Shown: piece by piece, positions 3,281 through 52,486 of the stretch | Position numbering within the stretch: position 1 is the stretch's first letter | Layout: each line of letters opens with the position of its first letter | DNA from: Pisolithus tinctorius | Lineage: Eukaryota > Basidiomycota > Agaricomycetes > Boletales > Pisolithaceae | DNA: 64,000 bases | NCBI GenBank assembly: GCA_024663395.1 | Contig: JANFAH010000058.1 | Coordinates: 124,001-188,000, forward strand | Direction: 5' to 3' | Translations under genes and position numbers: made by a program | The notes under the pieces: model-generated | The model's database searches: none | What the model saw: only the letters and a program-made list of their open reading frames with translations | What the model was told of the DNA's origin: nothing

Positions 3281-3502
3281 TCACACACCAAAGGTGCTGT
3301 GGACATGGTTACAGCTGACTCTGCCTAACTCATTGATGAGTTGCATGCAATGCCCATGCCATGCAGATGAAGACTAAAGGCCTCAAGCATAGAAAGACTG
3401 TTGGACATGAGCAGTCATCCTTTGCACAAGAATGAGTTGTCAGTGCTAAAGAGAAAAAGAGGAAGTGAGTTAAGTGCACATTAAAAGTTTTTAGTGCCCA
3501 TT
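3281..3502 (+). repeat. LTR-R, 5' fragment (first of two tandem starts)
   Basis: Begins TGTCACACACCAAAG and matches the first 222 bp of the full LTR-R copies at 36276 and 61115. It is cut at AGTGCCCAT by a second LTR-R starting at 3503. The other copies read CCCGTG or CCCATG at this point, so the second copy seems to have inserted into the first. Confidence 0.8.
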
Positions 3503-19437: not shown

Positions 19438-20490
19438 GTGCAATGTGTGTTCTTCGACTCCCTCAAGGATACGCAAGCAGTCTGTCAAGTGCACTTGCAC
19501 TTATATATTGATCCGACAGGCATGTCCCCCATATTTGGTTCTCTGCTAGAAAGTATACTAGGCTCTGGGTGCACTGAACTTCATGCAAGTAGCCACAGTG
19601 CTTCTGGTGGCTTGATCCGTATTCCTCGCATGACCCAATTGTTTCCAAGCACCTTGACATCTCTCAATATCTCGTCGCCTATGTTCTTTTTTCCACACTC
19701 TATCCGATTTACCCTCTCTGTGCTGCGAAGTGCTCCACTGGCAATTTTATGGCTTAATAATACAGGCCTAAGTCCTTTACAGTGGGCGTTACTCCTTGGC
19801 AAGGTAAACCTACCTTCCCTCATTGAATTGGAGGTGGACCAGACTTGCCTGTATGGTGCCCTCGCTACCTGTCTAATCGGCATCGGCTATCTCCAAGCTA
19901 ACTATCTCCCATTGTGGCTTTCCTACCATGTCTGTGGAAGATATCACTCCTTGTTCTGTCCTTCACTCCCTTCGAAAGCTTGCAGGACCCACTACCAGGA
20001 TCCTCCCCCTTCTGAAGGTAATTACCCTTCCCAGTGACTTCCAATGCCTATACATTACATTTCATCCCTACCATCCTGAAAGAAATCAAAATGTCTTTTC
20101 CGACATTTTGTCATGTGTGAATACCTCCCGCATCTTTCCCATCTTGAAATCTCAATGCCCATGATCACTTCGCACAGCTTGCAGCATTTGTCACATTCCC
20201 AATAACTGACAAGCATGTAATCCCTGTGAGAGACCTCACTTTTAGGGGAATCCACCCAATCCTTAGTACTCCAGATGTCTTCGATGCAATTGTAAGTTCT
20301 TCTCTGCACTTACTTTGTTGCCTCTAACTGTTTTTCAGGGTCACTGCGGCCCTTGGCTTAGAGCATTTCCTAATGTTCGCATGCTGCATATTGCATCAGG
20401 TAGACCCCTCCCTCTCGATAGATACAAGGCTATTTTCTGCCCCTTCACTCAACAAAATGTGGAGATCACGATTATTCCATACCAGTATTG
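19438..20490 (+). CDS. F-box/leucine-rich type protein, C-terminal part
   Basis: The open frame 19438-20037 contains short leucine-rich segments (STLTSLNISSPMFFFPHSIR, TLSVLRSAPLAILWLNNTGL and NLPSLIELEVD), and continues in shifted exons (RKLAGPTTRILPLLKV, FPNVRMLHIASGRPLPLD) to a stop near 20490. The spacing of Leu-rich strands separated by about 30 residues, with repeated Ser-Pro-Leu turns, resembles the F-box-linked leucine-rich proteins that are abundant in Agaricomycetes; these choose substrates for ubiquitin ligases. No F-box is visible, so the N-terminus is missing or lies in upstream exons. Exon borders after about 19880 are uncertain. It may be a pseudogene. Confidence 0.45.
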
Positions 20491-20974
20491 ATGATTTTAC
20501 TTGAATGTATGCTGTCTACAATGGACATGTTGGAGCATATTGAGATCGAGTAGAGAATTACCTTGAATACCAGCGGCGCCCTCTGCAATCAACAAGTTAA
20601 CCACGCTGACCACATCCCCCCAGGAAACGTACACCTCACTTCGCTCCCCTGCCACCCCTCCCGCTAACATGACACATGTTAGCCCCCTAGTGCCCCTTCC
20701 GCTCCACTCTATACTAGGATGGTCCAAGATACTAATCCATGTACTAACGCTGGAGCTCCTCTCTCCCAGGCATAGTACATACAGGATGTGATAAACTTGT
20801 AAAGATGCTTGTGTCAAAGGTAAATTATGTCAAAATATATACATAGTCAAATCGATAACTATATGATGCGACTATACGAGAAGCACTGACGAAATGTCAG
20901 TAAATTGATTATGATTAGGCTGAAAGACCTACCTTGTGGCATCAATCAGTCATGCAGCAACGACCAGGCAAACA
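20491..20974. other. Intergenic stretch
   Basis: Lies between the 3' ends of the F-box-type gene (plus) and the Spt5-like gene (minus). No supported feature. Confidence 0.4.
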
Positions 20975-22030
20975 TCATAACAGCTGAGTCCCATCCTCTA
21001 ATACCACCCCTTTCGGGGATTTCTTAGTTTGACATTTATTGATGCAGTGAATTTTGCCTTGGAGTGCGCCCTTCAGTATTAGGCAGAACTGACCAGTACT
21101 TGTCAGGTTGGTGGGGGACAAGTCATGTGCTGGAATAGTGTGGTGTTCGATGATGGTGCTTACCATGCTTGAGGTCACAGTAACCGACACATGCCCAGGA
21201 GGTGCCACGCCATGCTTCTCTGAAAAGAAACGATCTGGAATGGTGGTGCGAACCACCTGCTTGCCCAGGGTCCCACGATTGTAGGCAAGCCTGACTCTCA
21301 AGCAGACATGCCACTTGCTGAAGTTACAAAAGTTTGTCAAAGAGCCAAGACACGCATCCTAAACAACAAAGTCAAGAGAATGTGTAGCGAGAGGGGAGAG
21401 AATTGATGTACCGTAGTCAATGGTTTGTCGCTCCTGCTCACTGTGACGTTGCGGATTGACATCATTGGGAGTGGTGACCCAGGGGTTGCTTGGACCTGGA
21501 TCTGCTGAGGGATTTTCGCTTGGCAGTGGAGGTGGAGTGGTGCTGCGACATTGAGATTGAGTTATGAAACACCTCTGTCATATGGTTGAATGCCGCCAAG
21601 CATGAGGGACCTAGTGGTGTCCCATCAAGCAAGATGCCAAATCTAAAAAGGAAATATCAGCGCATGACCCCTAGCAATGAAGTGACTTACCTGGAGGCAA
21701 CTGCAGTATTTTTGAATGTCATGGTGCCGGAATGGATTGCAACCGTACACAAGTTTGGCCACTGATCGCAGCATCCCACTGTATCCCTTATTCGGACCCG
21801 AGATGATCCATACTTCACATCCAATATGTTGTTCTGCATCACGAAGGGAGTAGTCCCTTAATTTAGCGCAGAAATTAATAGGGATGTTGTGCTATGATGC
21901 CTTTAGAGATGGGATGACAGGCAAAGTAGAACCATGTACCCATGGACTGTCTTCAGACTCCAGTGTAAGGGTTGTGGTGATCAGGTTGACGCTGCGAACA
22001 ACTCCTTCGATGTCTACAGCAGGACCCCGT
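20975..22030 (-). pseudogene. Spt5-like KOW protein, 3' half, cut by retrotransposon G2
   Basis: Reads leftward from the G2 insertion. The exons include a KOW-like segment (EVWIISGPNKGYSGMLRSVA and, in the alternate reading, TMTFKNTAVASR), then FGILLDGTPLGPS, an NPWVTTPND segment, a 53-bp intron near 21360-21412, and the last exon 20975-21340, ending with HHTIPAHDLSPTN and CLILKGALQGKIHCINKCQ. These tail motifs are typical of a large basidiomycete family of Spt5-like proteins with several KOW motifs. True Spt5 is a transcription elongation factor; the role of the expanded fungal copies is unknown. The 5' half lies at 32360-34106, and the two halves join in frame across G2. Confidence 0.7.
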
Positions 22031-23005
22031 TGTAGGGAGCTGTATACTCCCTGAGGCTGGAACAGGAATCTGTCACTAAATTCCGCAGGCCTCTATGACA
22101 AACCCGTTTCGGAATTTTTCGGAATTTTTTCCCGCTCGTGTCCTCGCGTTTCCTCCCAACCCCTGTCCCCTTCGGAGTCTCTACCGACCTTCAGCGTGTC
22201 GCTCAGTCATCAAAACGCTGATCATTCAGTAGCCGTGCCATCGCTCAGCCACGTCACCAGTCGTCTGTGCCACTTACCTCTAAAAAACCCTGGTTTCCCC
22301 TGTCACCCTAAATTCCGCAAGCTGGACTTCGTGCCAGTACGCTACGCTCTGCCCTCCTGTGCCACTCAGCTCCACCTCCCACTTGTACGCATACTCTCGT
22401 TCTGTTGGAAGATACCCCTTACTGTTGTCCCGTTCTTACTCTTGTCTACTACCCACCGGACTATTTCACGTGCATCTGTATTTCGCTGATGTCTGACGTC
22501 CTTCCCTTTATTTTCCGGTCTTTTAGTTTTTCCGCCCCACCTTACTCTGACTTGTACCTACTTTCCCTGTACTATATAATTCTGCCATAGCATCGGAAAT
22601 AGGACACCCACCTTTTGGAGTCGCTATCTGTGTGTGTTCTGCGAGTTCGAGAGTTTCAAGAGTCTAAAGTGTGTATATAGAGTCTGCTGCGTCTTCAGTG
22701 TCCCCAGAGGTCTTTGTGTCTCCTGTGTCCTCCAGCCCTGCACACCTAATCCCGTGTCCCTTTTGCTTCGAATTCGCTCCTCTTGACGTGAAGCGACCCC
22801 TCGGAATTTCATATACCTGTCTTGCTGTTCCTCACGCGTCTACATCTGCCCAGAATTAAATTCCGCGACTCTCGCTTGAATTTCCCCACCGCTTCTAAGC
22901 CCATTCTCAACCTCTCCTTCCACACAGTACCCCTTGGGATGTTCCTAGGGAATTCTCCCTTCACCCTTCCTCTAGTCGCACGCTTCCCAGAAGTCGTGTC
23001 CCACA
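22031..23005 (+). repeat. 5' LTR of G2
   Basis: 975 bp, from TGTAGGGAGCTG to GTGTCCCACA. A TATATAA-like box lies at about 22573. It contains AAATTCCGC or CGGAATT at about 22079, 22111, 22122, 22312, 22801 and 22857. Confidence 0.92.
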
Positions 23006-23011
23006 ACGTTT

Positions 23012-23029
23012 TGGAGCCCACCGCGAGGG
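23012..23029 (+). other. Putative primer-binding site of G2
   Basis: TGGAGCCCACCGCGAGGG starts six bases after the 5' LTR and begins with TGG, as expected for pairing with the CCA end of a host tRNA. The tRNA is not identified. Confidence 0.4.
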
Positions 23030-23463
23030 TCTGTAGATCTGGAAAGGAGATCCTTACGACCCACTCGTCAAAGAACCGAACTCGAAGAGCTCTTAGAGCC
23101 CTTCCGCAGACTATCTATTTCCTCAGCAGAAATCTTAATTCCGGTAGCTGATCCTAGAGATATTTCAGAGCCACACTCGTCAGACTCAGATCTCGGTTTA
23201 GACGAGATCTTTCGGAGCCCAGAGTCCCCAGCATTTTACCCAGCGTTTCCAGGAGGCTTCGACTTCGACAAGCCCTTCGATCCTCCCACTGAACATCAAG
23301 AACTTTCGCCTCTCTCAGAACTAACTTCTTCGTCGTCCTCGCCATCCAGTGACTCAGAACTAGCCGCTGAACAGCTCCTACTTCCTTCCCATTCCTAATC
23401 ACAAATTCCGCTACCTCCCTTTCTACTCAAATACCCGTACAGAATTCTCTTGCCTCGACTCTC

Positions 23464-24549
23464 TTGAATTCCGCTCCTATCCTTCCCCGAATTCCGATCC
23501 AGATCCCCATACCACCTCGCATAATGTCTGGAGCAAGAGACATGCCACTCAGGGGTTCTAACAAAGCCCCGAAGTTTTCCGGTCATACTGAAGACATCAC
23601 TCGCTACCTTGAAGACGTCGAACAACTCTGCGTCGAAGCTGGCCTTGACACTGGGAAAGATAAGATCCACTGGGTCATTCATTACGCTGACCACAACGAG
23701 GCGGAGTTTTGGTCAACCTTAGACGCCGCAACCGACGGCTTCAATGACTGGGATGCGTTTTCCAAAGAACTCCTGAACTACTATCCAGGTGCCTCGATGA
23801 AAGATCGTCGCTATACTAAAGCTGACCTTGAAACCTTACTCTACCATCAAGTTCAGAAACCGATGGGATCACTGGAAGATCTCAGGAAATACGTCCGTGA
23901 ATTCCGACACATCCTCGGCCTCATCCAGAAGAAGAAGAAACTCCCTGAGGACTACATCAACGAGAAATTCCTTGAGGGGTTTCCCCCAAGATTTCGGAAT
24001 TCCTTGCTCACGCGATTGCAACTCTCTGACTTAGATCATGACATTGACGAACCATGGGAGTTCAATATAGTCTATAAACACGCCAACTACCTCCTCAGTG
24101 GGGCCAAACGGAACCTCCCTCAACCAGACTCGTCGGCACTGTTTCCCCAGAATTCTGCTCCATCTTCCTCACCAGCCGTTCCTACTATCCTGAAGCGAGA
24201 GTATGCTCATGTCGCTCAGCAACCTGTTCCTACCCCGCCCCCCCAACAAGGTCAAGAAGGACAATTCCGTCGTTCCTTCGATCCAGTGTGTTTCTTCTGC
24301 AGAGGAACAGATGGGCACAGAACTGCAGAATGTGCGCTGTGTCACGAATACGTACAAGCTGGGAAATGCTCCCTGATTGGAGGGAGGGTTTTCATGCCAG
24401 ACGGCTCTGATATTCCTAGGACAGCTGCAGGTCGTAATTTCAAGGAAAAGATCGATAACTTCCTCGCCATGCGCGACTCGATCATTGCCTCGGCAAACCT
24501 CGTCTCAGTTCAGCGACCCGCCAGCAGTCAACCTCATCCCGCGGCGTGA
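23464..24549 (+). CDS. gag: G2 Gag polyprotein
   Basis: 361 residues from the first Met; translation may instead start at 23524 (MSGARDMPLRG), where similarity to fungal gag begins. The capsid region runs from KAPKFSGHTEDITRYLEDVE to about residue 220 and includes AEFWSTLDAATDGFNDWDAF and LRKYVREFRHILGLI. A zinc knuckle near residue 280 reads CFFCRGTDGHRTAEC, which is CX2CX5HX4C, one residue longer than the usual CX2CX4HX4C. A Pro/Gln linker precedes it. Gag assembles the particle and binds the RNA. The frame is intact, unlike the RT. A second short frame (24571-24763) follows in another phase with an acidic segment and a Lys-rich end. Confidence 0.88.
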   Translation: MNSAPILPRIPIQIPIPPRIMSGARDMPLRGSNKAPKFSGHTEDITRYLEDVEQLCVEAGLDTGKDKIHWVIHYADHNEAEFWSTLDAATDGFNDWDAFSKELLNYYPGASMKDRRYTKADLETLLYHQVQKPMGSLEDLRKYVREFRHILGLIQKKKKLPEDYINEKFLEGFPPRFRNSLLTRLQLSDLDHDIDEPWEFNIVYKHANYLLSGAKRNLPQPDSSALFPQNSAPSSSPAVPTILKREYAHVAQQPVPTPPPQQGQEGQFRRSFDPVCFFCRGTDGHRTAECALCHEYVQAGKCSLIGGRVFMPDGSDIPRTAAGRNFKEKIDNFLAMRDSIIASANLVSVQRPASSQPHPAA

Positions 24550-25205
24550 AACTCCTCCCCATCTCGTCAGCACAATGTTCTTCAGCAACGAAGATGTTTC
24601 GGAATACCAAGTCGACCTACACCCCTCTTCCTATCTAGTCGACGAAAACCTAGAGGAGGATGCTGACGAAGAAGACCAACGTGCCTTAGCAAGGGCTTAT
24701 GCGCAGGTAGAAGAGTTGAAGAACGCTATCAAGAAAAAGAAGACAGCCGCTTCGACGGCGTAGAAGTCCCGTTCGTCGTCAAAGGCCGGCACTAGCAGTC
24801 CCAGCGTCGGCCAACGCGCCGTGCCTCCTATCCCAGTCAGTAATTCCGCTCCAGCTAACCTGCCTCGTCTTCGGAAGCCCCAGCCGGAAAAACTCCGGTT
24901 GCTCCTAATCTTACAGACCCCGGAAACTTAAGCCAACTACAAATTCCGCACCCCAATTCCGTTACCAAAGCAGTTTTGATGAGCTGCGGCGACCAAGCGG
25001 ATCGTAAACCAAGTCTTAGACGCAAAAATGGAAATCTCTACTAAAGATCTATTAGCTGTCAGCCCGAGATCGCAAGCAGATCAGAGAACTAGCTGCGACG
25101 AAGAAGATAACTATTGGGAGTTTAGAAACCGCATCAGACGCGACTCCCTCGGCTGCTTGGGCGTCCTATGAGCAGTACTGGGTCAGAGACACAGAAGGGA
25201 AGTGC

Positions 25206-25721
25206 GTGGGCCTCGCTACGGCTCCCTTACGTGCTGTCGACGGGATCTTGATGGACAAACTCCATGTCGAATGTATTTTGGACAGCGGATGCCAGGTAGT
25301 GGCCTTGCGACGGGAGTTGTGGGAAGCCTTAGAGGCCCCTCTCCGTACTGACATGACCATGACTCTGGAGGCCGCTAACCAATCTAAAGAAAGCACCCTT
25401 GGGGTCATAGAGAATGCCACTTTGCGCATAGGAAACGTCGAGGCTCATCTACAAATCCAGGTCGTTGATCGCGCGCCTTTCGACTTACTTCTCGGTCGAC
25501 CCTTCTTCTGCCTACTCTCCAGCGTCCTTCGCGATTTCCCTGACGGAGAACAGTCTCTAGAAATCCGCGACCCTAATTCCGGTAAACAAGTCTTAATTCC
25601 GACACGACCTCGCAACAGGCTGCAACCCCTTCCACGTTTCGTAAATTCCGAAGACGAAGAAGACTTCTTTGCGCGAAAACAAATGCGTCGCCACATGAAT
25701 CCACCCGAGCAGGGTTTTTAG
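25206..25721 (+). CDS. pol: G2 aspartic protease region
   Basis: 172-residue open frame. The active-site segment is HVECILDSGCQVVALRREL (D-S-G at about residue 27), followed by LGVIENATLRIGNVEA and the second conserved segment FDLLLGRPFF, as in retroviral-type pepsins. It cleaves the Gag-Pol precursor. The start Met is probably internal to a longer Pol precursor. Downstream it runs into an acidic linker, and the RT is in broken frames. It contains two AATTCCG copies that encode N-S or I-P dipeptides, so the motif is tolerated in coding sequence. Confidence 0.82.
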   Translation: MGLATAPLRAVDGILMDKLHVECILDSGCQVVALRRELWEALEAPLRTDMTMTLEAANQSKESTLGVIENATLRIGNVEAHLQIQVVDRAPFDLLLGRPFFCLLSSVLRDFPDGEQSLEIRDPNSGKQVLIPTRPRNRLQPLPRFVNSEDEEDFFARKQMRRHMNPPEQGF

Positions 25722-25979
25722 TATCGGTCGAGGACTCGTACGATCTGAGGAGACCAGGACTGCGCTTTCTCCGTGTGTTCACTTTATGTTTCTGATCTGT
25801 CTTTATACCCTTTGAAGTCTTCCACGTTTTTACCCACAGACACTGCCGTAAATTCCGCTGTGGCGTTTATCTACGACTTTCGAGGCAACATACGCCTCCT
25901 GTCGATCCCTTTGACACCAGTTCCGTTTCTCCGACTGATCCTTTCCTGTTCTCGACCGCTACTACCATTTCTCCACTGA

Positions 25980-27300
25980 CAATTTCTGCCTTACGCTCTA
26001 CTTATCAGTTCGATCCCGTTTATCATGTCTTAAAGTACAAACCTGTAGCGAGGAAGGTGAGGCCGGTACCGACGTCGATGCCAGCAGAATTCCGGGTAGA
26101 GCGTCGGGAGGCCGAAGACCCACTCGCAGATCTGCCTGTTTACCTACTCATCCCCCTCCGTTCGTGCCAGGTTCCAGGTTTACTCAGGAAAGAGCTGACG
26201 AGCTCGATTGGACCCGGCAAGGTTCCTTTGGCCTACAGAATTAGACCTAGTACGGTGGTTGGTCAGGGAGCATGAAGATGCCTTTGCTTGGGACGCTTCG
26301 GAAAGAGGGACCTTCGAGAGGACATGTTCCCGCCCCTGAAGATACCTACGCTAGCCACAAGCCTGGGTCGAGCGGAATATTCCCATTCCCCGCTATTTTC
26401 CGTGAAGTCGTTAATATCATCAAGAAAAGATTTCCGCAGGGGTTTATGAACCGTCTACTTCGTCTTACCGCTCAAAATGGTTCTGCGTGTCAAGAAGGAC
26501 GGAAAATCTCTGCGCCTCGTACATGACTTACAACCTCTAAACGCCGTTCTATCCAGGACTCAGCTGTTCCCCCCTTCGTCGATTCGATTGCTGAAGCCTT
26601 CGCTTGTCATTCGTCTACGGAATTTTAGATCTTATGGTCGGATATGATCATCGCACCATACACGACGATTACCGAGACCTCACTACCTTCCAAACTCCTA
26701 TAGGTACCTTCGACTCACCAAACTTCCTATGGGCTACACGAATGCCGTCCAAATTTTCCACGGAGACGTCTGTTGGATTTTAAAGACGAAATTCCGGAAG
26801 TCACCATCCGTTTATCGACGACTGTCCCATTAAAGGCCCAAATCTCGCTACCAAAATCCCGACGGGACCTACGAAACGATTCCACAGAATTCCGGGATTA
26901 GACGCTTCATCTGGGAGCACCTGCAGAACGTCAACCGAGTCTTACACCGTCTGCGTCATGCAGGAGCCACCGTGTCAGCAAAGAAATGCGTCATTGCTGC
27001 GCCGTCTATCATAGTGGTTGGGCACAAGGTGTCGTTCGAGGGTAGAATTCCGGACGAATCTAAAGTCCAAAAGATTAAAGATTGGCCGTACTGCACAAAC
27101 GTCACTGAAGTACACGGATTTTTAGGTCTCTGTTCGTACTGCAGGATCTTCATCAAAGACTTCGCCAAACATGCCCGTCCCCTCGTCGAGCTGACCAAGA
27201 AGGACGTCCCCTTCGAATTCCGTGACGAGCATAGGGAAGCGATGGAGTACCTCCCGTGCGATGATCGTCTCGTCCCCTGCGTTACGAACTATCGACTATA
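25980..27300 (+). pseudogene. pol: G2 reverse transcriptase, several frame breaks
   Basis: RT motifs are spread over three frames: RVKKDGKSLRLVHDLQPLN (about 26485), LTTFQTPIGTF (about 26690), the catalytic-site segment PFIDDCPIKGP (about 26810, FIDD in place of YIDD), and then 26972-27301 (MSAKKCVIAAPSIIVVGHKV, IKDWPYCTNVTEVHGFLGLC). The I-D-D-x-P-x-K-G-P pattern belongs to a fungal gypsy group distinct from the chromoviruses G1, G3 and G4 (YLDD or FLDD). At least three indels break the frame, so this copy could not make RT by itself. Confidence 0.8.
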
Positions 27301-27947
27301 ATTCCGAAAAAAAGTCATTTTAGCTGTCGACACTTCTAACATCGCTGTTGGGTACTCCTCATGCAGGAGGGGGAAGACGGCAAACGCTACCCTGCTAGGT
27401 TCGGCTCGATAACTCTCAACGATGCGAACGCGCTACAGCCAAGCTAAGCTAGAATTATTTGGGCTTTTCCGAGCCTTGCATGACGTCCGACTTCATATCT
27501 TCGGCGTGCGGAATTTAGTCGTTGAGGTGGATGCGGTACATCAAAGGGATGATTAACAATCCCGACCTACAGCCTAACGCGACCATAAATCGCTGGATCG
27601 CCGGAATTCTCCTATTCGACTTCGAGCTCATACATGTTCCAGCACACAAGCACGCAGCGCCGGACGGACTTTCGAGGAGACCGAGAGCAGAAGAAGATGA
27701 GGAGGGAGACGAGGACTATGAGGATTGGATCGATGAGTGTGGGGCTTTTGCAGTCGAGCTCTTGAATCGTAGGGAAGCGCGTTTCGAGTCCCATCCTTAC
27801 CCCTTGGAAATTCCGAGCGTCGTGTCAGACTCATCCCTCCCCCTGTCACAGAGTCTAGGTATCTTTACCGCCGAAGAATCGATGCCGGAAAACCTCGAGC
27901 CGAAATTCCGAGGTCAGAAAAAGCGAAACAGAGAGAGGAGAGGATGA
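27301..27947 (+). pseudogene. pol: G2 RNase H and tether region
   Basis: RNase H pieces: VILAVDTSNIAVGY (about 27317), SQAKLELFGLFRALHDVRLH (about 27440) and the open frame 27522-27947 with MINNPDLQPNATINRWIAGI and FELIHVPAHKHAAPDGLSRR. The last is the usual end of gypsy RNase H before integrase. It degrades the RNA strand of the hybrid during reverse transcription. One or two frame breaks separate the pieces. An acidic linker follows (EEDEEGDEDYEDWIDE). Confidence 0.78.
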
Positions 27948-27962
27948 GAGTGGTGAAGGTTT

Positions 27963-29176
27963 TTGGAGACGAAGAAAACGCCCGAAGGGTTAGAGGAGGC
28001 AGAATTGGAGAGCCTAGTGCGCCTTGCGACTCGGTATTTCGTAAAAGGGGGAGAACTGTGGAGGAAGGATCCCCAGGGACGGCATCAGCTAGTGGTACCC
28101 TCACACAAACGCCTTGGAATTCTCCGCCAGGCCCACGACGACCTAGGGCACAAGGGTATCTTCTCGACCCGTATGCGTTTGCTGACTCGCTTTTGGTGGC
28201 CCATGCTAGAGCAGGACGTCCGTTGGTATGTTAAATCGTGCCACGAGTGCCAGATCCGTCGTTTGGATCGCATTCATATACCGCCAGTTGTCGCCATCCC
28301 CGAACCCCTGTTTTACAAGGCTTATATGGACACGTTCTTAATGCCGAAGTCGAACGGGTTTCGCTACGTTACCCAAGCCCGCTGTTCACTCACCAGTTAC
28401 CCCGAATGGGCTATGCTTCGTGCAGAGACAGGCAAGTCCATTGGAAAGTTCATCTTCGAACAGATTCTGTGCCGTTGGGGTGCCGTTGCGGAGATTGTCA
28501 CAGATAATGGGGGACCATACGTCCTCGCTCTCGACTGGCTCTCCAAGACCTTCGGAATTCGCCACATACACATCTCCCCTTATAACGCAGGCTAATGGAG
28601 TCGAAACGGCGGCATTTTGATGTAAGAGAGGCGATGGTAAAGAGTTGTGGTGGGGAAGCGTCGAGGTGGTCAGAAGTGGCTCCTGCGTATTTTGGGCAGA
28701 GAGGGTTACGGTTCACAAGGCAACCGGGTTTCTCCATTCTATATGGCTCACGGTGTTGAACCCAGACTCCCTTTCGATCTGGTCGAAGCGACGTTTTTAG
28801 CCCCTTCGAGGCGGAATTTTACTCGACTACAGACCTCATTGCTCACCGTGCTCGCCAACTCCAGAAACGCCCCGAGGACCTCGCTCGCATCCACGATATG
28901 GTCCTAAAATCCCGCTTTGCCTCAGCCAAGGATTTCGTCGATCGTTTTGCACGGTCCATCAAAGACTTTAACTTCGAACCAGGGTCGCTTGTCCTCGTTC
29001 GGAATTCCCGTATCGAACTAGAACTCGACCGGAAAACCAAACCGCGCTACCTAGGGCCTATGATCGTCATCAGACGCACTAAAGGCGGCTTCGTACATAC
29101 TTGCGGAATTAGATGGCGCAGTCTCGAAATTCCGTTTCGCTGCCTTTCGCCTATACCCCTATTTCCCGCGGAATAA
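27963..29176 (+). pseudogene. pol: G2 integrase (near-intact core, broken C-terminus)
   Basis: The open frame 27963-28595 holds the HHCC zinc domain (RQAHDDLGHKG, then CHECQ) and the catalytic core with the first Asp in KAYMDTFLM and the second in VTDNGGPY. The third acidic residue, in QANGVE at about 28590, lies after a frame break. The C-terminal part resumes at 28898-29176 (FNFEPGSLVLVRNSRIELEL, PRYLGPMIVIRRTKGG). No chromodomain is seen. Integrase inserts the cDNA. The pol sense ORF ends near 29176, leaving 2.2 kb before the 3' LTR. Confidence 0.85.
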
Positions 29177-29410
29177 CGCTCGTATCGAAGTCACCCAGCT
29201 GACTGGTGCTTCCCCACAAGACCTGGATCGTCTTGAAGACGAAGCGTTCCCGGACCCTACGCTCGCTGGCGTCCCGTTGGACGAGTCAGATGAGTAGCCC
29301 GTCCTTCTCTCTACCTCTTTTCTTTTCTTTCTCTCTTCTTTCTTTTATCGATACCCGTTTCATCTCATATATAAATTCCGCACCGCTCACATGAAAGAGA
29401 CAAAGTCGCT

Positions 29411-29436
29411 AAAAAAAAAAAAAAAAAAAAAAAAAA
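29411..29436 (+). repeat. Run of 26 adenines in G2
   Basis: Uninterrupted A26 downstream of pol, directly followed by TTCCGC, so that its end forms another AATTCCGC motif. It could be a fossil polyadenylated end, a transcriptional pause element or replication slippage. Confidence 0.8.
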
Positions 29437-29560
29437 TTCCGCACTACTTTTCCTTCAGAAGTCTTACATTTCCTTACTGTAGTACTAATTCCAACGCACG
29501 AAAGACTCTTTCACATTCGGGACATACGAGTACAAAATTCCGCAGACACTAGTACGCTAT

Positions 29561-31129
29561 TTACAGGTCGCGGAGATCGTCCTTCAACCTTCGCAACTCC
29601 TCCCGTCTAGCCCGCGCAGTCTCGATGCGATATGTCACCCGCCTCGCCAGCATCCCCAGCAGCCGGTAGACCTGCTCCAACTCGAACTCCTCGTCCTCGG
29701 CCCTCGCCTCGAGCACTCGCAGACGCTCGACGATGTTCGCTGTCGACCGCTCTCGCGTGGGTACTCGACCTCCGAATTTCCAGCAGAAGGAGTGTTGCTC
29801 TGGGCCGTCGCTTCGACGTCTCCAGGTTCGTCCAGTAAACTGGTCGCAGTCGCAAAAAATGGCTCGAGCTCGACTTGCGGTTCGTCGACAGGGATGGGAG
29901 AGGGCTTGAATGAAGGTCCGGGCATTGGAGTAGCCCCGCGGAAAAAGAGACGAGGTGTTGGTGGAGGATCGTGGGGTGAAGGGGTCGGTTGTGGCGAAGG
30001 AGAACGTGTGGGAGTCGGATCAGGCTGCCGTTTTCGAGCCGGAATTTTCAGAGTGAGCTTCTTAGCAGGTCCAGTCGCAGGTTCGGCCGGGGACGCCTTC
30101 GCGGTCGTAATCGATTTGACCCGTTTGTGGGACGGGCCTGCTTCCCCAACGGTACCGGAGTTCTTTCGCTGAAGGTGGTGTCAGCCCGTTCCCTTGCGGA
30201 ATTTCACCTGTTCGGTACTCACCTTTCTCCCTACCCCTCGAGAGCGCGAGCACTTGCTTCGCCTTCTGGCACCGTTTACAGGATGACTCTGGCTCCCCGC
30301 GCACCTGAAGTTCGCCTGCGCACACGTCTCGCAGGGCTCGTTGTCTCCAGCCACGTGAGGTCTCTTTGCAGAAGGACCTGGTTCGCCTTCGCCTTCGCCG
30401 TCGCCCTCGTCATCGTCGACGTCATCAGCCAGCTCGTCCTCCTCGCTGGTGGCCTGCGGAATTTTCGTTGAAGTCAGCACTCACTCGGGGTTGTCAAGGA
30501 CGTGGAACGCACCTTCTGTTTCCCTTTTCCTTTGCTCGCGCTTCCAGAGCCCCCCCCTGTCGAACGTGCAGCTCCTCTTGACGGGTTTCCTTCGGTATCT
30601 TCTGGTGCGTGGTCTTGGCCCTCACCTCTTGCTGCTTGGCCGGGGTGCATGGATGGTGCCTTGGCCAACCTCTCAGCCTCTAAGCGCGCTCTCTCCTCGA
30701 CCCGCTCCTGGTAGTCCTCGAAGACGTCGTCGATGTGGAATCTTCGCTGCCCTTCTGGCCGACGAAGATCTGCTATGGCTATGACCACCGGGATCACCTC
30801 GTTCTGCTCCATCGCGGATTCTTCGGTCATGTCGCGTAGGTTGGTGTCGCGCACCTTCGGGATGGGATCTCGTTCTCGTCGACGTACTTCCACCACGAGT
30901 AAATGCCGCCTGGAGATCTGTTAGCGCGGGCTGTACGAGTATCTAGTGCACTCACCCAGGTCTGGTCCCAGTCCGCCACCCACTCGTATATCGCCTCTAG
31001 GCTCTCTTCGGGTTGCGGCGCCGTGTCGATCAACACCCTAACGTGCCTCAGAGCTGCTGACAGCGAGATAATGGCCTGGTCCCTCATGCTAAACACCGGT
31101 CGTGCGTCGCGGATCGAGTAAGCTTGCAT
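29561..31129 (-). CDS. Antisense gene of G2: coiled-coil protein with zinc-cluster-like cysteines
   Basis: Runs against the element and starts 265 bp inside the 3' LTR. Exon 1, 30956-31129, is 58 codons (MQAYSIRDARPVFSM...). The intron 30918-30955 is GT-AG. Exon 2, 30513-30917, is Arg/Glu-rich and ends in a Gly/Ser/Lys stretch (GSASKGKGKQK). The next acceptor is AATTCCGCAG at 30454-30463, and exon 3 starts ATSEEDELADDVDDDEGDG. It then carries PCETCAQANFRC (CX2CX6C), followed in a neighbouring frame by CKRCQKAK, which resembles the second half of a Zn(II)2Cys6 cluster. Further left: KKLTLKIPARKR, a Pro-rich part, and a C-terminal coiled coil (VERLRVLEARAEDEEFELEQ) to the stop at 29561. Exon borders beyond exon 3 are unsure. 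This may be a DNA-binding regulator. Confidence 0.6.
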
Positions 31130-31393
31130 GTCGACGGGTGGATGACGTTGGGAGCAAGATAAGTGGGCGAGGGTGTTGTTGGGGGAGTTTGACGAGCGGT
31201 GGGCCACCTTCTGGGCGAGTTTAAATTCCGCAGGGCCATCTCGTACAATGCGGAATTTCCCTCTGCACGAGGCGAATTCCGACCATGCGCCATCATTGTT
31301 ACGTAACGTCTGCCGAAATTCCTCTGTGCTCGTCTCTGTCGCGTCTCGGTTCGGTCTGACCAAGGACGGTCAGCATTCGAAGTCCCCGGGAGG

Positions 31394-32359
31394 TGTAGGG
31401 AGCCGTATACTCCCTGAGGCTGGAACAGGAATCTGTCACTAAATTCCGCAGGCCTCTATGACAAACCCGTTTCGGAATTTTTCGGAATTTTTTCCGCTCG
31501 TGTCCTCGCGTTTCCTCCCAACCCCTGTCCCCTTCGGAGTCTCTACCGACCTTCAGCGTGTCGCTCAGTCATCAAAACGCGATCATTCAGTAGCCGTGCC
31601 ATCGCTCAGCCACGTCACCAGTCATCCGTGCCACTTACCTCTAAAAAACCCCAGTTTCCCCTGTCGCCCTAAATTCCGCAAGCTGGACTTCGTGCCAGTA
31701 CGCTACGCTCTGCCCTCCTGTGCCACTCAGCTCCACCTCCCACTTGTACGCATACTCTCGTTCTGTTGGAAGATACCCCTTACCGTTGTCCCGTTCTTAC
31801 TCTTGTCTACTACCCACCAGACTATTTCACGTGCATCTGTATTTTGCTGAGTCTGATGTCCTTCCCTTTATTTTCCGGTCTTTTAGTTTTTCCGCCCCAC
31901 CTTACTCCGACTCGTACCTACTTTCCCTGTACTATATAATTCCCCATAGCATCGGAAATAGGACACCCACCTTTTGAGTCGCTATCTGTGTGTGTTCTGC
32001 GAGTTCGAGAGTTTCAAGAGTCTAAAGTGTGTATATAGAGTCTGCTGCGTCTTCAGTGTCCCCAGAGGTCTTCGTGTCTCCTGTGTCCTCCAGCCCTGCA
32101 CACCTAATCCCGTGTCCCTTTTGCTTCGAATTCGCTCCTCTTGACGTGAAGCGACCCCTCGGAATTTCATATACCCGTCTTGCTGTTCCTCACGCGTCTA
32201 CATCTGCCCAGAATTAAATTCCATGACTCTCGCTTGAATTTCCCCACGCTTCTAAGCCCATTCTCGACCTCTCCTTCCACACAGTACCCCTTGGGATCCT
32301 AGGGAATTCTCCCTTCACCCTTCCTCTAGTCGCACGCTTCCCAGAAGTCGTGTCCCACA
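31394..32359 (+). repeat. 3' LTR of G2
   Basis: 966 bp, from TGTAGGGAGCCG to GTGTCCCACA. It differs from the 5' LTR by scattered substitutions and a few 1-4-bp indels (for example GGGATGTTCCTAGGG against GGGATCCTAGGG), so the insertion is fairly recent but not brand new. Confidence 0.92.
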
Positions 32360-34106
32360 CCGTATGACTTGTATTAGGTCGCCTTTAGAAACATCCCACC
32401 CCTTCTCCTTCGAGAACTGCAGCGTTGGTCGAGCTGTCACTTGGACGTCGTCCAAGCTGACAATGATCACCTCCTCATCGTCAGCCCCATCGCTGTCGCT
32501 GTCCTTACCAGGAACCTCTGGTACTTGAGCCTTGGACTTGCCTTTGTCCCCCTTGGCATCTTCGTCGTCAATGCCTTTTCGATGTGCTGTGTGACCCATA
32601 TTTGTCTGAGGCTGCAGGAGAAGTATTGCACTCGGCCTGCAGGCCCCTGTAGGGTCCGCTGATGATACATACCATGTCCCCGGGCTCTATGAAGTGCTCT
32701 TCAACTGGGGGATGGTCGCAGTTGATCGTGGGGGTCTCGGTTGGGATAGCTCAGCAGCACTCTGTGTGATGCTAGGAAGATCGTAGGGATGTCCATCTAT
32801 GAGCAAGCGTTAGCAAAGGATTTTACTCCGAATACCCTGACTTGCCTGTTGTCCTGTTGCCACACAAAAGAGCCATGTCCTCGATCACGTCGACACTGAG
32901 TACCATGCCCTCAAAGCCACGATGAGGGCTGGCAATGACATCTACTGAATCACCACTGCGAAACTTGCATTTGAAGTCATGAATTGAAATCTCCAGAGAT
33001 GTAGGCAATTCCAGAGTAGGATTATCCAAAAACAATCACTGATTCACCTTGGACGTCCATCGCGACGTATGCTACCTCGTTGACAAACTCCCGCCTGAAT
33101 CTTGCCACAATCTCCTACCTGCCACTTTTGAGCAGAGAAAAGTCAAGGTACATGCAACCAAAGTGGGATCCACGTCCGACATGACGAACCATGCAATTTG
33201 CTCAGGAGTAGGCAAGCTCACCGCTCGACGTTATGCCTCTGAAAACCTGTGAAGAAGGCCGCAGTGGTACTGAGACTGGAGGCAGTGGGCAATAGTACAC
33301 CCCTCCAGGACTCGGGGTAAGGATTACCTCCAGGCCATGTTGGCAGGCCAGGTCCACGTCAAAAAGCTCCCAGTGGGCTGCAGAGTTCTCACCTGGAGAT
33401 AGGGCAAATTCCAAGGAACGACAGAAGGTACACCAGTCACCTTCGACGTGCTTTACATAGGCAATTTCGTTCTTGAGACCACTTGTTAACAAGTGAACCC
33501 AAGAGTGAACAGGTATGTCGCTGGGCTGTGCAAAGGGTTCCATTTCTTCCATTGGTACTGGCATGATCTGTGGGACAAGATTGGCGTGAAGGGGGAAGCC
33601 TGAGTCGGACGTCTTGCACGCTGGGAGCTTCCACATAAATGTGGTGAGGGACCAATGGAAAGTCTTGCATTTTAGGCCTTCCAGCTTGAAGTGCTGGAGG
33701 ACAATCCTGCAGAACGAGCTAATGGAGACCAGGTGAGTTCCCAAGCAAAGGAGTGAAGAGGAGACAGGACGTACCAGAGGGCAGCACGACCTTGAATACT
33801 CTTGGCTGAGTCCGATTCGTACCCACCTCCATACGACCTTCGACACTGTGAACTGGGCCCTGCTGATGCCTTCGCCCTCGACCCTTCTGCACTCCCCTCA
33901 CCACTGTAGCAACGAAAAAGGCTTTCAAGCTGTTGAGTTAAATTTGCATGCCCCAACGGAGGTATCTCGGTCACCCTTGGACAACAGTTAGCTTCGTCGT
34001 CTAGTTCGTCTTCCTCTTTGTCCTCTTTGTCCTCTTGTTCTCCCGTGCAGAAATATCCAGATATCGGGAAGCGGACTTGCTCATTCTTGGACGCTTTGCT
34101 GGGCAT
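32360..34106 (-). pseudogene. Spt5-like KOW protein, 5' half, cut by retrotransposon G2
   Basis: Probable start at 34106 (MPSKASKNEQVRFP), followed by an acidic stretch (EQEDKEDKEEDELDDEA), as in Spt5 family members. Then IYVEAPSVQDVR, VPMEEMEPFAQ and WVHLLTSGLKNEIAYVKHVE (first KOW-type unit), FKCKFRSGDSVDVIASPHRG with FEGMVLSVDVIED (second unit), and LQFSKEKGWDVSKGDLIQVI, which runs directly into the G2 target site. Across G2 the reading continues at 22026 leftward with GPAVDIEGVVRSVN, completing a KOW motif. Several exons and possible indels occur. G2 must abolish the normal product. Confidence 0.7.
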
Positions 34107-45423: not shown

Positions 45424-47260
45424 TGTGAGTCAAAGTGTGGAATGCTGGTGAAAACCAAACAAATCCAACACAAAAGACAAATAAGAGCAAGTGGTGGTTT
45501 GCCTCTGCAGAACCTGGAGTGCAGAGAAACCTAAAGTGGGGGGAGTTTCAATGGCAGGTGCTCCTAGCGCAAGTCGTTGACGAGTTACACAGGAGTAGAT
45601 GAATGGACGATGACTGAGGAGGGAATGCTGAACAGAGTGAAGGTGTTCAGCTGAAAGGACTTCTTGGAATAATGGACTTTGATAAAATGTGCTCCTGGTG
45701 CAAGTCGTTGACAAGTTACGCAGGAGTGGAGGGATGACTAAGACAGCTGACTAAGAGGAAGCTTCAGATGAATGATGGAGGCAGATAGACTCTTCCGAAT
45801 GAGCCTCAACTACCAAGTATACAAATGATGACAGATAGACCCCTTCGTGGAGCCTCAACTGTTGATGACAAGATAGGCACTGGACTGACTGCTGGACTGC
45901 TTCTGATTGATTCTTGGTAGCTAAGTACACGGGGGTTTATATACTGTGGGGGGAGCACAGCTTGTGACAAACAAGGCACAAACACTTGGTAAGTAATGAG
46001 TAAGGACTGGGTAATCATGATGAGTAAGTGAGAAATGAAAAGTAAGCAAGCAAAGAAGATTGGTAAGTATTGGCAATGAATGAGTCAAGGATAGTCAAAA
46101 TATCACAAAACGAGTCAAATAGAATCAGAAACTGAGTAAGTGCACTGATATCACATTAGGGGGTGGCGATGCAAGTTAGATCTCGGCGGAGACATCTCTA
46201 GATCCAAAGATGGCATGACAGATGGATGGTGTTTCCAGATAGGGAAGTATTAATTCCAGAATTGAAGGGCATGAGTCAGGCATCAAAGGGGGCTAGGGCA
46301 TTGGGGGTCTGTGGGGCAACAAGAGCATACATGATCGCATCTCCCACCCTTCCATCCTCTCAGTGAAGTTAACAAAAACTTCATGGATGGGGTTCTGATG
46401 GAGGAGGAGGAGAAGGGGGGATGTCTTCTGCTGAATCTTGCAGTAAGAAGGCAAGATGCATGTCATACTCATCATGAATGTGATCAGGGAGGCTGGAGGA
46501 CAGTAGATTATGCTGCAGCTGTTGCAATGTGGGAAGAATGATGGACGAGACTGGAATAAAGACAGTGCAGGGAGCAGGGAGGAACGATCCATATGCTTCA
46601 TCAACCGGGGAGACTGAAATGACCACATAAGACCTTTCTAACCGAGTGACAGACCTGAGGTGACCAAAGAACATCCTGGAAGTCATACTGACAAGGAGAA
46701 CACGCTGACCAAGCTGCATGGGATGAGACAGGGCTGACAACAATGGGATGAACCAGGGGGCTTCAGGACGGAAGCTGGTGGGAATGCCTGGCAGATATAC
46801 ATAGCCACTGTCTCTGGCAAATGAGACAAGCGAGATGATTGATGAAGAGGTGGCCATGATTGATGGACTTAGCAAAATGAGCATCTGATGGATGGAGTGC
46901 TGTAGAAACATGCAGGGTGCGAGGATCCTCTCCAAATTTGGAAGGAAGAATCATGGGGCTGAGCACTTTAAGCAAGTGTGGGAATGGAGTTGATATCTTT
47001 AGAAATGGTGGAGATACAACAAAAACCAGAATGCCATACACAGGCACTAAAAACCTTTAATGTGCACTTAACTCGCTTCCTCTTTTCTCTTTAGCACTGA
47101 CGACTCGTTCTTGTGTGAAGGATGACTGTTAACATCCAACAGTCTTTCTACGCATGAGGCCTTTAGTCTTCATCTGCATGCTTGGGCATTGTGCACAACT
47201 CGTCAACAAGTTAGGCAGAGTCAGCTGTAACCATGTCCACAACACCTTTGGTGTGTGACA
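45424..47260 (-). mobile_element. LTR-R, full-length copy, inverted
   Basis: 1,837 bp, reverse orientation compared with the copies at 36276 and 61115. The open frame 46381-46935 (minus, 184 residues) is the longest version of the conserved LTR-R frame. The left flank is CATGG (minus-strand downstream flank CCAT) and the right flank CCAG, lying inside the G3 5' LTR. The flanks do not form a duplication with each other. Confidence 0.7.
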
Positions 47261-47532
47261 CCAGTAACCCCGGCCTTCAGGTTGCTGGTCTTTGGTATAT
47301 ATACTCTACATACGTTGTACTTAGTTCCTTAGTCTGAATATCAACTTAGTTCACCCCAAGTCTCCAGCTTAAGCCTGAGTTGACTCTCGGCTTTTGCTCC
47401 TGATCCCCCTCAGCTTTCTCTGACTTCAACCCAGCTTGCGCAAGGGTCTAGCACATGAGCTAAGACCAAGGGTTGTTGCCCCTGGCACTCAGCCTTCGGC
47501 CTTCGACCCCCATCCCAGTCACGGACTTAACA
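47261..47532 (+). repeat. 5' LTR of G3, 3' part only
   Basis: Matches the G3 3' LTR from GTAACCCC onward (60864 to the end). It contains GGTATATATACTC as TATA box and CCTTAGTCTGAATATCAAC, and ends GGACTTAACA. The first about 210 bp of the LTR is missing, its place taken by LTR-R. Confidence 0.8.
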
Positions 47533-47572
47533 GTATATCCAGACTTCCACTTGTGCAAGTCACTCACCACCC

Positions 47573-48942
47573 ATGACCAGAACTCGCACCCAAGCTCGAG
47601 CAGACCACACTTTAGAATCTGCCTCTGCCTCAAGACCAACCCAACCTGAAACCTCAGATGACCTTCACTGCCAGTCGGCCCTCAGTTCCCTCGCCAGTCA
47701 CCGCCGGACTTCTGCAGTCGTGCAGCAGTTCCAAGGATTCTCAGCCCATCATTCTGGTACTGCACCAGCTTCCAACAATCGAGGTACACCAACACCAGCC
47801 AGTCGTCGACCTCCTGCTCCCTTTGGTAACCCTGGAGGTGATGGTGACATCGACCCGGACAACTCTGACCATCACTCCAGTGATGACGACAATGATAACA
47901 ACGACGATCCTTTCGGGCCTAATCCCGAGGAAGGTGAACATGAGGAAACTGAAGGAAACCTACAGCTAAGGGTCTTAGACAGCCTCACCAGGGCCGTACA
48001 GTCCCTCGCCCAGTCTTCCCGCCAAGACACTGAAGGAAGCTCAGGATCAGCCAAGGTCCGAGAGCCAGACACCTTCGATGGCACTGACCCAAAGAAGCTC
48101 CGACAATTCCTCATCCAGTGCGAGTTAACTTTCCAGAACAAACCCCAAACCTTCCGCAATGACCGCCAAAAGGTAACCTTCACTCAATCCTACCTCAAGG
48201 GAATGGCACTCGAATGGTTCAAGCCAGACCTTCTTCTCACCAGCGAACCTGAGGACCCACCCCTGTGGATGGACAGCTGGCACAAGTTTGTCATCGAACT
48301 CCAGTCGACCTTTGGTCCCCATGACCCAGTAGCAGAAGCCGAGAACCAGCTCGACCACCTAACCATGAAAGAAACCCACCGCATCAATAAATACATGGTC
48401 GAGTTCAATAGGCTAGCTACCCAGGTCTGGGGATACAGTGACAGGGCTCTCCGCCACTTCTTCTATGCTGGTCTCCCTGACCGAATCAAAGATGAGATAA
48501 GCCGGGTAGGCAAACCCTGCACCCTTGAAGACCTTCGCTGTCTAGCTCAGGACATAGATGCCTGCTACTGGGAATGATGCGAGGAGGTCCAACGCCAGAA
48601 CCGGTCTTCCGGTAACCAGAACTCGTCAAAGACTGGCAATAGAGACTCAAACACCGACAAAGGGAAAACCTCGGCATCCAACACCTCCCAGTCCCCCGCT
48701 GCACCAAAGACCAGCAGTACCAGCACCGGGTCTTCAAAGCCCGAAACAGCCAGCAACAAACTCGGCAAGGATGGAAAGTTAATGGCTGCCGAGCGAAAGT
48801 GATGTTTCAACTTAAAACTCTGCATGTTCTGCGGAGGGGATGGTCACATAGCCAAGGAATCCCCAAGAAGGTGGCCAAAGCTAGAGCAGCTGCAGCAGCT
48901 CCGGAAGCCACACCAGAGGCCTCCACTGAGGCAAAAAAATAG
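47573..48942 (+). pseudogene. gag: Ty3/gypsy G3 gag
   Basis: The start at 47573 (MTRTRTQARADH) is 40 bp after the LTR. Like G1, it has a Ser/Pro-rich head, an Asp/Asn-rich block (SDDDNDNNDDPFGP), and then the capsid (EPDTFDGTDPKKLRQFLIQC, YLKGMALEWFKPDL, MKETHRINKYMVEFNRLATQ). The 334-residue frame ends at TGA (48575) where Arg is expected (CGA decay). The knuckle CMFCGGDGHIAKE at about 48822 lost its last cysteine through a one-base deletion (ESPRR instead of ECPKK). A Ala-rich tail ends at A7-TAG (48933-48942). Moderately decayed. Confidence 0.88.
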
Positions 48943-51650
48943 TCGGCGGTCCTCAGAACCTCGCACACCCGAGGACCGCATTGACTCCAGTGGTGTGCTC
49001 TCGGAGGTTAAGCTCAACGCATCTGCTCTTTGTAACCCAAATAGTCTTATGCCTACCATTTCTCTAGCATCCTACAATGAGCCGGCATTCCCAGTACTTG
49101 TCGACTCTGGCTCTATGCACTGTTTTATAGATATAAAGTTTGCAAATAAAATCTCTGTTCCCCTTTACTCCGTCCTGCTGGTCCAGCTTTGGCTGTTTGA
49201 CAGCACATCCAACTCAGTCATCACCCAGGCAGCAGACCTCATCTTCATTTTTCCCTCCAGCGATGCAACCCCGGTCACCCTCTATGCAACCCTGCTGGAC
49301 TCTGAGTGCAAGGCAGTCTTAGGATACAACTGGCTCACCCAACACAATCTGTCAATTGACTGGGTCTCGAGCAGTATTAGATTCCAGACGCCTGTACAAT
49401 GAGTGCCAGACCCCCCGACATCACCCCCTGACCCCGAGCCTTCAGCTCCCGGACCAACCACCCTCGGCTCTAGCGAGCATCTGACCCCGCAATTAGAGAA
49501 ACTGGTTGCACTGGGCTTGACTTGCCCACCTATCGCCTTCATCAATGCCATGGCCTATGTCTGGGCATGTAAACTTGAAGGGTCCTCTCAGTTCAGCCTC
49601 CAGCTTCATCCCTCGGCCCTCACCTCTCTTCGGTCTTCAAGGGTAGAAGACGCACCAAACCTCTCTGGCATTCCACCAGAGTACCATGAGTATGCTGACA
49701 TGTTCAGTAAATCCAAAGCCACTACCCTAGCACCCCACCGAGAACACGATCTTAAGATCGAGCTGGAAGGAGACTCATCACCACCCCTTGGCCCCATCTA
49801 CTCCCTGTCACTGGTAGAGCTTGAAGCTCTCCGGGCCTTCCTAGACAAGCATCTGGCTACTGGGTTCATCTGACCGACCTCTTCCCCCCACAGAGCGCCA
49901 GTCCTCTTTGTCAAAAAGAAGGATGGCTCCCTTTGGCTTTGTGTCGACTTCTGGGGCTTGAACAAGATCACCAAAAAGGACTGATACCCACTTCCCCTCA
50001 TCACCAACCTCCTAGACTCGCCATCCTGGGCCAAGGTTTACACCAAAATTGACCTCAGGCATGCGTATCACCTAGTCCGGATCGCTGATGGTGATGAATG
50101 GAAAACCACATTCCACACTTGGTATGGGTCCTTTGAATGGCTTGTCATGCCTTTTGGTCTGTCCAATGCCCCGGCGGTGTTCCAATGCTTCATCAATACA
50201 GTGTTCGCTGACCTCCTAGACGTGTGTGTCATGGTCTACCTGGACGACATACTCATCTACTCCAACGATGAGAACTCACACCGGCAGCATGTTAAAGAGG
50301 TCCTGCACCAACTCCAGAAACATGGCCTGTATGCCAAACCAGAAAAATGTGAGTTCCATTCCAAATCGGTAGAATACCTAGGCTACTGTCTTTCGCTGAC
50401 CGGCCTCACCATGTCTGGTGAAAAGATCAAAGCTGTCTGTGACTGGCCTGAGCCCCGGAAGGTCAAGGACATCCAATCCTTCCTAGGCTTCGCCAACTTC
50501 TACTGGTGCTTCATCTATAACTACTTGGACATCATCATTCCCTTAACCCGCCTTACACGAAAAAACATACCCTGGAACTTCTCTGAGGAGTGCCAGTCAG
50601 CCTTCAATATGCTCAAAGAAGCTTTCACCACTGCTCCTGTCCTTACTCACTTTGTTCCCAGCACCCAACTCACAGTGGAGACCGATGCTTCGGACTATGC
50701 CATTGCCAGCATACTGTCCATTACCGGTGAAGACAACCAACTTTGCCCAGTCGCCTTTTACTCCCGGACACTGTCTGTGCCAGAACTCAATTATGACACC
50801 CACAATAAGGAGTTGCTTGCTATCTTTGAGGCCTTCCGGGCCTGGAGACACTACTTGGAGGGTGCCCCTCTACCCATTGATGTGGTCACCAACCACAAGA
50901 ACCTTGAATACTTCTCAACCTCTAAGGTACTCACACGCTGGCAAGCCCAGTGGTCCAAGTACCTGTCACAATTCAACCTTGTCATCCATTTCCGCCCAGG
51001 TAAGCTCGGTGCCAAGCCTGATGCTCTCACTAGACAATGGATGTCTACCCCAAAGAGGGGGATAGGGGCTATGCCCAGGCAAACCCCCACAACCTCTGAC
51101 CGGTGTTCACGCAAGAACAGTTGGTCTCGGCTCTCCACGCCACATGCTTGGAGTACCCCATACTACGTGCCAGCCTTCTAATGGACGTAGAGCAACTCCA
51201 CAACGAAATACTCGCCACACTATCCCAACACTGACTCACAGACACCTCCGATCCCCGGTGGTCGGTTGATAGCACCGGTCTGCTGTGCCTCGATAACCAG
51301 ATCTATGTACCAGATGCCAATGACCTTCGGCTCAAGGTCCTTCGGTACAAGCATGATCACCCACTGTCAGGGCACTTCGGCCAGAATCAGACATTGGAAC
51401 TGATCTGGTGAGAGTACACCTGGCCCGGTGTCCGCACCTTCATCAAAGAGTATGTGAGGTCCTGCACTACATGCACGAGAGCCAAAACACCCAGACACCG
51501 ACCATATGGCACCCTGAAACAACTGCCAATACTGGAAAAGCCATGGAATTCCATATCTATGGATTTCATTGAGCACCTACCGGCGTCCGATGGTCACACC
51601 GCTATCCTGGTGGTCATGGACCGACTATCCAAGCAGGCTGTGTTCATACC
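48943..51650 (+). pseudogene. pol: G3 pol: protease, reverse transcriptase, RNase H, start of integrase
   Basis: Protease PVLVDSGSMHCFID (about 49095). [50 protein letters not shown] and the catalytic [10 protein letters not shown] (about 50240). RNase [16 protein letters not shown] and [20 protein letters not shown]. Integrase: the zinc domain HDHPLSGHFG with CTTC, and the start of the core, WNSISMDFIEHLPASDG. Premature stops at about 49399, 49870, 49981, 51231 and 51409 are all TGA in place of Arg. The 50147-51181 frame (344 residues) is open. G4 (TSD ATACC) interrupts the integrase core at 51650; it resumes at 58334. Confidence 0.9.
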
Positions 51651-52442: not shown

Positions 52443-52486
52443 GTATCCCCCCCTTAGGGCCTGAACCCCTGAAGGCCATAGCAAAG

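Follow-up and report, generated by a model that had tools for sequence, protein, structure and literature searches.

Possible self-marking of a Pisolithus tinctorius Gypsy retrotransposon by a dense DNA word shared with an unrelated Copia element

In the VANDAL transposons of Arabidopsis, an element-encoded VANC protein is reported to bind dense short motifs, lifting silencing over the transposon (PMC5735166, PMC10398659). Fungal DNA transposons are reported to encode TET/JBP dioxygenases proposed to counter methylation silencing (PMC12730594), and the antisense genes of plant long terminal repeat (LTR) retrotransposons, for which DNA binding is considered possible, are described as having an unknown role (PMC7264820, PMC11963269). 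Zinc-cluster proteins of fungi are reported commonly to read CGG triplets and to be able to bind as monomers (PMC11087348). Here we analyze a 64-kb window of the Pisolithus tinctorius genome (the whole stretch C58:124001-188000; the genome searched comprises 92.5 Mb in 221 contigs), which holds a Ty3/Gypsy LTR retrotransposon, G2, saturated with the 7-mer AATTCCG, or CGGAATT on the opposite strand. This word may serve G2 as a private binding code marking its own copies, and a search of the open-access literature returned no recognised description of such a case.

Exact counting over the window placed 50 of the 51 copies of AATTCCG/CGGAATT inside G2, with the remaining copy starting at 45022, in agreement with the original prediction of about 50 copies in the element and a single one outside it at about 45024. 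One LTR-to-LTR unit (22031-31393, 9363 bp) contains 45 words where a second-order Markov model of G2 expects 1.58 (Poisson log10 P -47.8), a density nearly 30 times chance, which bears out the predicted excess over background and makes AATTCCG/CGGAATT the most deviant 7-mer listed for the unit. The signal is sharp: among its 21 single-mismatch neighbours in G2 the most frequent, AATTCTG, occurs 9 times versus 1.7 expected, and the bases around the 45 words are weakly constrained (A precedes 25 of the 45 and C two, and T follows five). Region counts place the words in the LTRs, gag, pol, the antisense gene and non-coding parts, at the irregular spacing that had been described (mean 209, standard deviation 192), and Tandem Repeats Finder, run on 20000-34000, returned an A run only and no array of the word. 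The features of G2 are as follows.

22031-32359, + strand: G2, Ty3/Gypsy LTR retrotransposon with LTRs, flanking CCGT, and protease and integrase domains; 50 words
22031-23005, + strand: 5' LTR, 975 bp; six words, of which three begin 48, 79 and 89 bp into the LTR
23371-24546, + strand: gag open frame; Retrotrans_gag match at E 0.011, below cut-off; genomic matches to a 341-amino-acid part
25056-29173, + strand: pol, in several open pieces with interrupted frames in the window copy
29561-31129, - strand: antisense gene, flanked by pol and the 3' LTR; frames disturbed in the window copy
~31129-30956, 30909-30513, 30453-30223 and 30168-29561, - strand: the four antisense-gene exons, inferred by eye from splice signals
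30454-30463, - strand: end of an inferred antisense-gene intron, read from the sequence as the word followed by CAG (AATTCCGCAG)
30250-30333, - strand: antisense-gene segment for the zinc cluster, spread over more than one frame in the window copy
31394-32359, + strand: 3' LTR, 966 bp; five words

The assignment to Ty3/Gypsy rests on the LTRs, a target-site duplication (CCGT, read from the sequence, directly abuts the element outside both ends), the gag match below cut-off, and the protease and integrase. The pol pieces match an aspartyl protease and Integrase_H2C2 above the cut-off and rve below it, and no reverse transcriptase domain matched in the six G2 window open pieces searched. The surrounding window is repeat-rich, and its flank at 1-21900 has a CpG observed/expected ratio of 0.22, which together point to methylation-driven decay.

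The excess persists when the encoded protein and its codon usage are held constant. Codon shuffles of six gag-pol open pieces (1260 codons) yield 2.98 words on average versus the 20 present, and those of a 945-codon frame in another copy, L002, yield 2.12 versus 14, with none of 500 shuffles reaching the observed count in either case; codon or amino-acid bias is thus rejected as the source of the word. Words in coding sequence occupy all three frames of the sense strand. Both orientations are used, in the proportions of 21 sense to 8 antisense in gag-pol, 3 and 3 in the 5' LTR, 2 and 4 in the antisense gene and 4 and 0 in the remainder of the unit. Spread of a tandem or dispersed repeat is likewise rejected, since the flanks differ from site to site and there is no tandem array, and the palindromic CGGAATTCCG does not occur in the LTR-to-LTR unit, ruling out a palindromic dimer site. 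Across the whole genome the word occurs 9983 times, whereas its reversed sequence occurs 5364 times; pairs on one strand separated by 0-30 bp are found 250 times for the word and once for the reversed pattern.

The excess extends to other copies of G2. The genome contains at least 121 matches to the 341-amino-acid part of gag and at least 125 to a 58-residue antisense exon, fragments included, and we fetched the 60 best-matching loci, 30 for each of the two genes. The gag loci carry 10-24 words per 4 kb and the antisense loci 2-16 per 2.7-3.2 kb. AATTCCG leads all 7-mers in 30/30 gag loci and 22/30 antisense loci (all except L046, L048, L050, L052, L053, L054, L058 and L059). In decayed copies it is replaced by AATTCTG and AATTCCA, its two CpG-deamination products, and these forms are also in excess in related lineages, namely L064 (20 and 17 versus 2.3 each, at a CpG observed/expected of 0.20), L075, which like L064 has a G2-like cluster, and L063, which has a related antisense exon. 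Decayed words in a 68% gag relative, L062 (7 and 7 versus 1.9 and 2.5), were discounted as that locus is rich in tandem repeats. Upstream of its decayed relative of the G2-type antisense exon, L063 has a large inverted repeat at 621-3975 (860 bp, 100%), accompanied by repeat arrays with units of 21 and 43 bp.

Comparison of diverged copies points to selection on the word as DNA. Subfamily A, represented by L002, and subfamily B, represented by L024, share 77% identity across the fetched 4 kb and have 16 word columns in common, of 24 and 20. From L002 to L024, 15 of 24 words are retained versus 5.4 expected from local 7-mers (0 of 2000 draws), and restricting the control to local CpG-containing 7-mers leaves the expectation at 5.1. 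Retention exceeds the local controls in nine of ten directed comparisons, eight at 0/2000 and L002-L030 at 3/2000; these comparisons overlap through shared copies and are not independent. Moreover, third positions of conserved residues between L002 and L024 changed at 3/23 sites inside words versus 248/675 outside (Fisher P 0.025), and in the reverse direction at 2/22 versus 249/676 (P 0.006). Counts alone, in the same direction, are 4/27 versus 242/761 for L021, 5/21 versus 224/709 for L030 and 5/25 versus 241/739 for L022 (2/19 versus 244/745 in reverse). At six words in the shared frame that are private to L002 or L024, the partner is 1-3 bases off, synonymously at three of the six and not at the other three. 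Collectively, because retention between subfamilies this diverged exceeds local expectation, selection on the word as DNA in G2 is well supported.

For the antisense gene, proteins of P. tinctorius support the exon joins (P0001 at the first intron and P0004 at the third), and a search with the antisense exon matched three proteins, all from this species, one of which differs from L041 at one residue by eye. Between subfamilies (L036 versus L066), nonsynonymous (pN) and synonymous (pS) differences are pN 0.31/pS 0.80 over 44 zinc-exon codons and pN 0.15/pS 0.65 over 58 exon-1 codons, and on these values the gene encodes a protein under purifying selection. Zn(II)2Cys6 clusters (PF00172) have the spacing CX2CX6CX5-12CX2CX6-8C, and the antisense cluster fits it, with CX2CX6CX7CX2CX6C in both subfamilies. 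Its pattern lies in one frame in 24 of the 30 antisense loci (all except L031, which is the window copy, L044, L046, L054, L058 and L059), and an alignment of nine sequences shows all six cysteines invariant, as are two lysines ahead of the last cysteine. The UniRef name of P0004 begins "Zn(2)-C6 fungal-ty". Against a curated PF00172 cut-off of 21 bits, subfamily B scores 21.3, just reaching it, P0004 10.8, and the clusters of two other Gypsies described below, L078 and L077, 18.9 and 17.9. In subfamilies A and B the CX2CX6C halves match those of PF00172 and of the Lac9/Pho7 type in swapped order, with weak matches (E 3.8-9; 0.28 and 0.00029); given this weakness and the normal order of the halves in the sister cluster of L078, the half-swap is a reading rather than a proof.

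To place G2 among other elements of this genome, we compared it with one Copia and several Gypsies, which include the following.

G000:C4:3998300-4003700: Copia element L061, with RVT_2 and copia gag matches; unrelated to G2
47260-61114 of the window: outer Gypsy, kin of L077
~51650-58338 of the window, - strand: nested Gypsy with near-identical LTRs, inside the outer Gypsy

The Copia carries 23 copies of AATTCCG/CGGAATT in 5.4 kb versus 1.1 expected, 20 of them in one LTR-to-LTR unit and on both strands, and 16 words versus 1.97 under codon shuffling. CGGAGTT occurs in it 7 times versus 0.7 expected. Relatives of this Copia give 153 reverse transcriptase matches, at 45-100% identity among the matches listed, and a sister Copia at 46% identity has no words in the 1.5 kb read.

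Among the Gypsies, L078, a sister with a 70% identical integrase, carries an antisense zinc cluster whose residues differ (CDRCRVARAVCSGALGLKCARCRQLRYTC), and the 3.8 kb read contain no AATTCCG, for which about 18 would be expected at the density of G2, and no other strong word. A more distant sister, L079 (63% identical), showed neither words nor the zinc-cluster pattern in the 3.4 kb read. In L077 a zinc cluster is encoded by an antisense frame that is open over 396 codons. A scan of L077, L078 and L079 for gapped words (3+3 bases, gaps 3-15) gave nothing comparable to the G2 word. Within the compared Gypsies the word tracks those lineages that have a G2-type antisense gene, and is not found in the L078 and L079 stretches. 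The nested Gypsy is saturated with a different word, CTCCG, which is usually extended to CTCCGC or CTCCGA. Read as CGGAG, it occurs 109 times on the + strand of the window and 12 times on the - strand, a strand bias not seen in G2, and the coding pieces of this element hold 82 CTCCG/CGGAG versus 33.6 by codon shuffle. Across the elements compared, the presence of a word and that of a zinc-cluster gene are not strictly linked. The antisense open reading frame of the outer Gypsy (59781-60551, - strand) encodes a zinc cluster, CRQCKKGWVPC...CDQCTEMKVKC, with 66 genomic matches, and for the antisense protein of L077, 22 of the 24 matches listed at E 1e-10 are Pisolithus proteins, and the remaining pair covers 11% and 6% of the query.

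Selection that is element-wide, on both strands and sharp points to a sequence-specific DNA-binding protein as the reader of the word. AATTCCG, read as CGGAATT, would then be a putative recognition site built up in G2 by point substitutions under selection, and its likeliest reader would be the zinc-cluster protein of G2's own antisense gene. Because CGG is common in zinc-cluster sites and G2 encodes a zinc cluster, self-recognition is the simplest account, and we give it roughly an even chance; protein binding as the selected property, with the antisense protein as binder, fits the cluster and the CGG. This protein may bind each CGG-AATT site singly, which fits the absence of CGGAATTCCG from the unit, and may coat LTRs and gene bodies alike, activating G2 or preventing its silencing as VANC does for VANDAL. 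The unrelated Copia, having acquired the same word, would use the G2 protein in trans as a hitch-hiker. The best explanation taken whole, in which the antisense protein binds CGGAATT across the element, keeps G2 active and is exploited by Copia, seems to us about as probable as its negation. A broader scheme is possible but doubtful: the LTR retrotransposons of this fungus may use zinc-cluster words as private passwords, with a half-swapped antisense protein binding CGGAATT element-wide, Copia exploiting the same password and the nested Gypsy using CGGAG with another reader.

Several observations weigh against self-recognition by the antisense protein. L077 and L078 have antisense zinc clusters, yet the sequence read from them (3.8 kb for L078) showed no saturating word, so that such a gene does not always bring a word, and the rule that an antisense zinc cluster means a saturating word is rejected. 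Conversely, cysteine-pattern scans of both strands found no zinc cluster in the Copia or in the nested Gypsy, each of which has a word. The cluster of subfamily A scores 11.7 against PF00172, under the cut-off; a structure model of 44 antisense residues is poor (predicted local distance difference test, pLDDT, 62.8), and a PDB search with it gave no match at E <9. In L065, another lineage with a cluster of this kind, decayed words are not clearly in excess (8 versus 4.7), though hardly any CpG is left there (0.04 observed/expected). Retention from L002 to L026 is not significant (8/24; 234/2000 draws). Finally, word CpGs are not clearly protected in 15 subfamily-A copies (88/353 deaminated versus 1043/3620, P 0.14); since they decay about as fast as others, we read the selection as acting in the active lineage, and these counts lend no support to protection of words in trans in decaying copies.

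The main rival is a host zinc-cluster transcription or chromatin factor that binds CGGAATT, with G2 and Copia each having evolved sites that recruit it. Fungi have many such factors, this account explains the Copia as well as self-recognition does, and it suits the finding of words in Copia and the nested Gypsy, where the scan detected no zinc cluster. A promoter binder, however, would need no sites across gag and pol, and the word follows the G2-type antisense lineages among these Gypsies; we therefore regard a host reader as rather unlikely, if the strongest competitor. Less probable still is that the word is read, again as double-stranded DNA, by another function of the element, such as an integrase or gag complex acting in the import or targeting of complementary DNA. 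Words throughout the element and on both strands would suit this, but Gypsy and Copia share the word despite different gag and pol families, and we know of no use of such a word by integrase or gag functions. Selection at the level of RNA or codons, through packaging, splicing or codon preference, is very improbable: the sense orientation dominates gag-pol and one inferred antisense-gene intron terminates in the word and CAG, but the 5' LTR holds both orientations equally and the excess over codon shuffles is found in several frames. Chance, mutational bias or repeat spread, which could draw on the CpG within the word and on the CpG-poor flank, where word counts are expected to be lower, is contradicted by the element-matched Markov and codon controls, the differing flanks, the lack of an array and retention against CpG-containing 7-mers, and is negligible.

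The remaining suggestion of the original prediction, selection of the word as a protein-binding site, is partly supported: codon shuffles, nine of ten retention comparisons, fewer synonymous changes between L002 and L024 and the use of both strands and of non-coding parts favor selection as DNA, and the antisense protein is a candidate binder, with the clusters of L077 and L078, wordless in the stretches read, counting against it. Self-recognition would give the antisense genes of LTR elements a function that can be tested, and may be a fungal parallel to sequence-specific anti-silencing in which even coding sequence is full of sites. Since two superfamilies share the word, this would also be a natural instance in which one transposon exploits the protein of another, and the 45 sites of G2 lend themselves to measuring how arrays of binding sites are built by selection.

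Compared with known systems, G2 most resembles VANDAL in carrying a short motif that is dense in the element and rare elsewhere, though one Copia is also dense in it, and in encoding a candidate binder. VANDAL motifs, as reported, lie mainly in non-coding tandem repeats, whereas G2 words are dispersed and also occupy coding sequence. VANDAL is a DNA transposon, whereas G2 is an LTR retrotransposon with a zinc-cluster protein, and its word recurs in a second superfamily. For VANC, binding and loss of methylation are reported as demonstrated, whereas the G2 protein is a candidate binder. The TRP28 gene of Retand has the same position and orientation as the G2 antisense gene and a product predicted to bind DNA, but reports suggest that it is limited to flowering plants and the available account names no recognition word, whereas G2 has a zinc cluster and a candidate word. 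The TET/JBP transposons are likewise fungal elements, with a gene proposed to protect them from silencing by methylation, but these are DNA transposons encoding an enzyme rather than a sequence-specific binder, and the available description mentions no word. With fungal zinc clusters (PF00172; Lac9, Pho7), the G2 cluster shares the cysteine spacing, a basic second motif and CGG in the candidate site, and may differ in the order of its two halves: PF00172 has the basic motif first, and the halves in subfamilies A and B match, weakly, in swapped order, whereas those of L078 match in the normal one.

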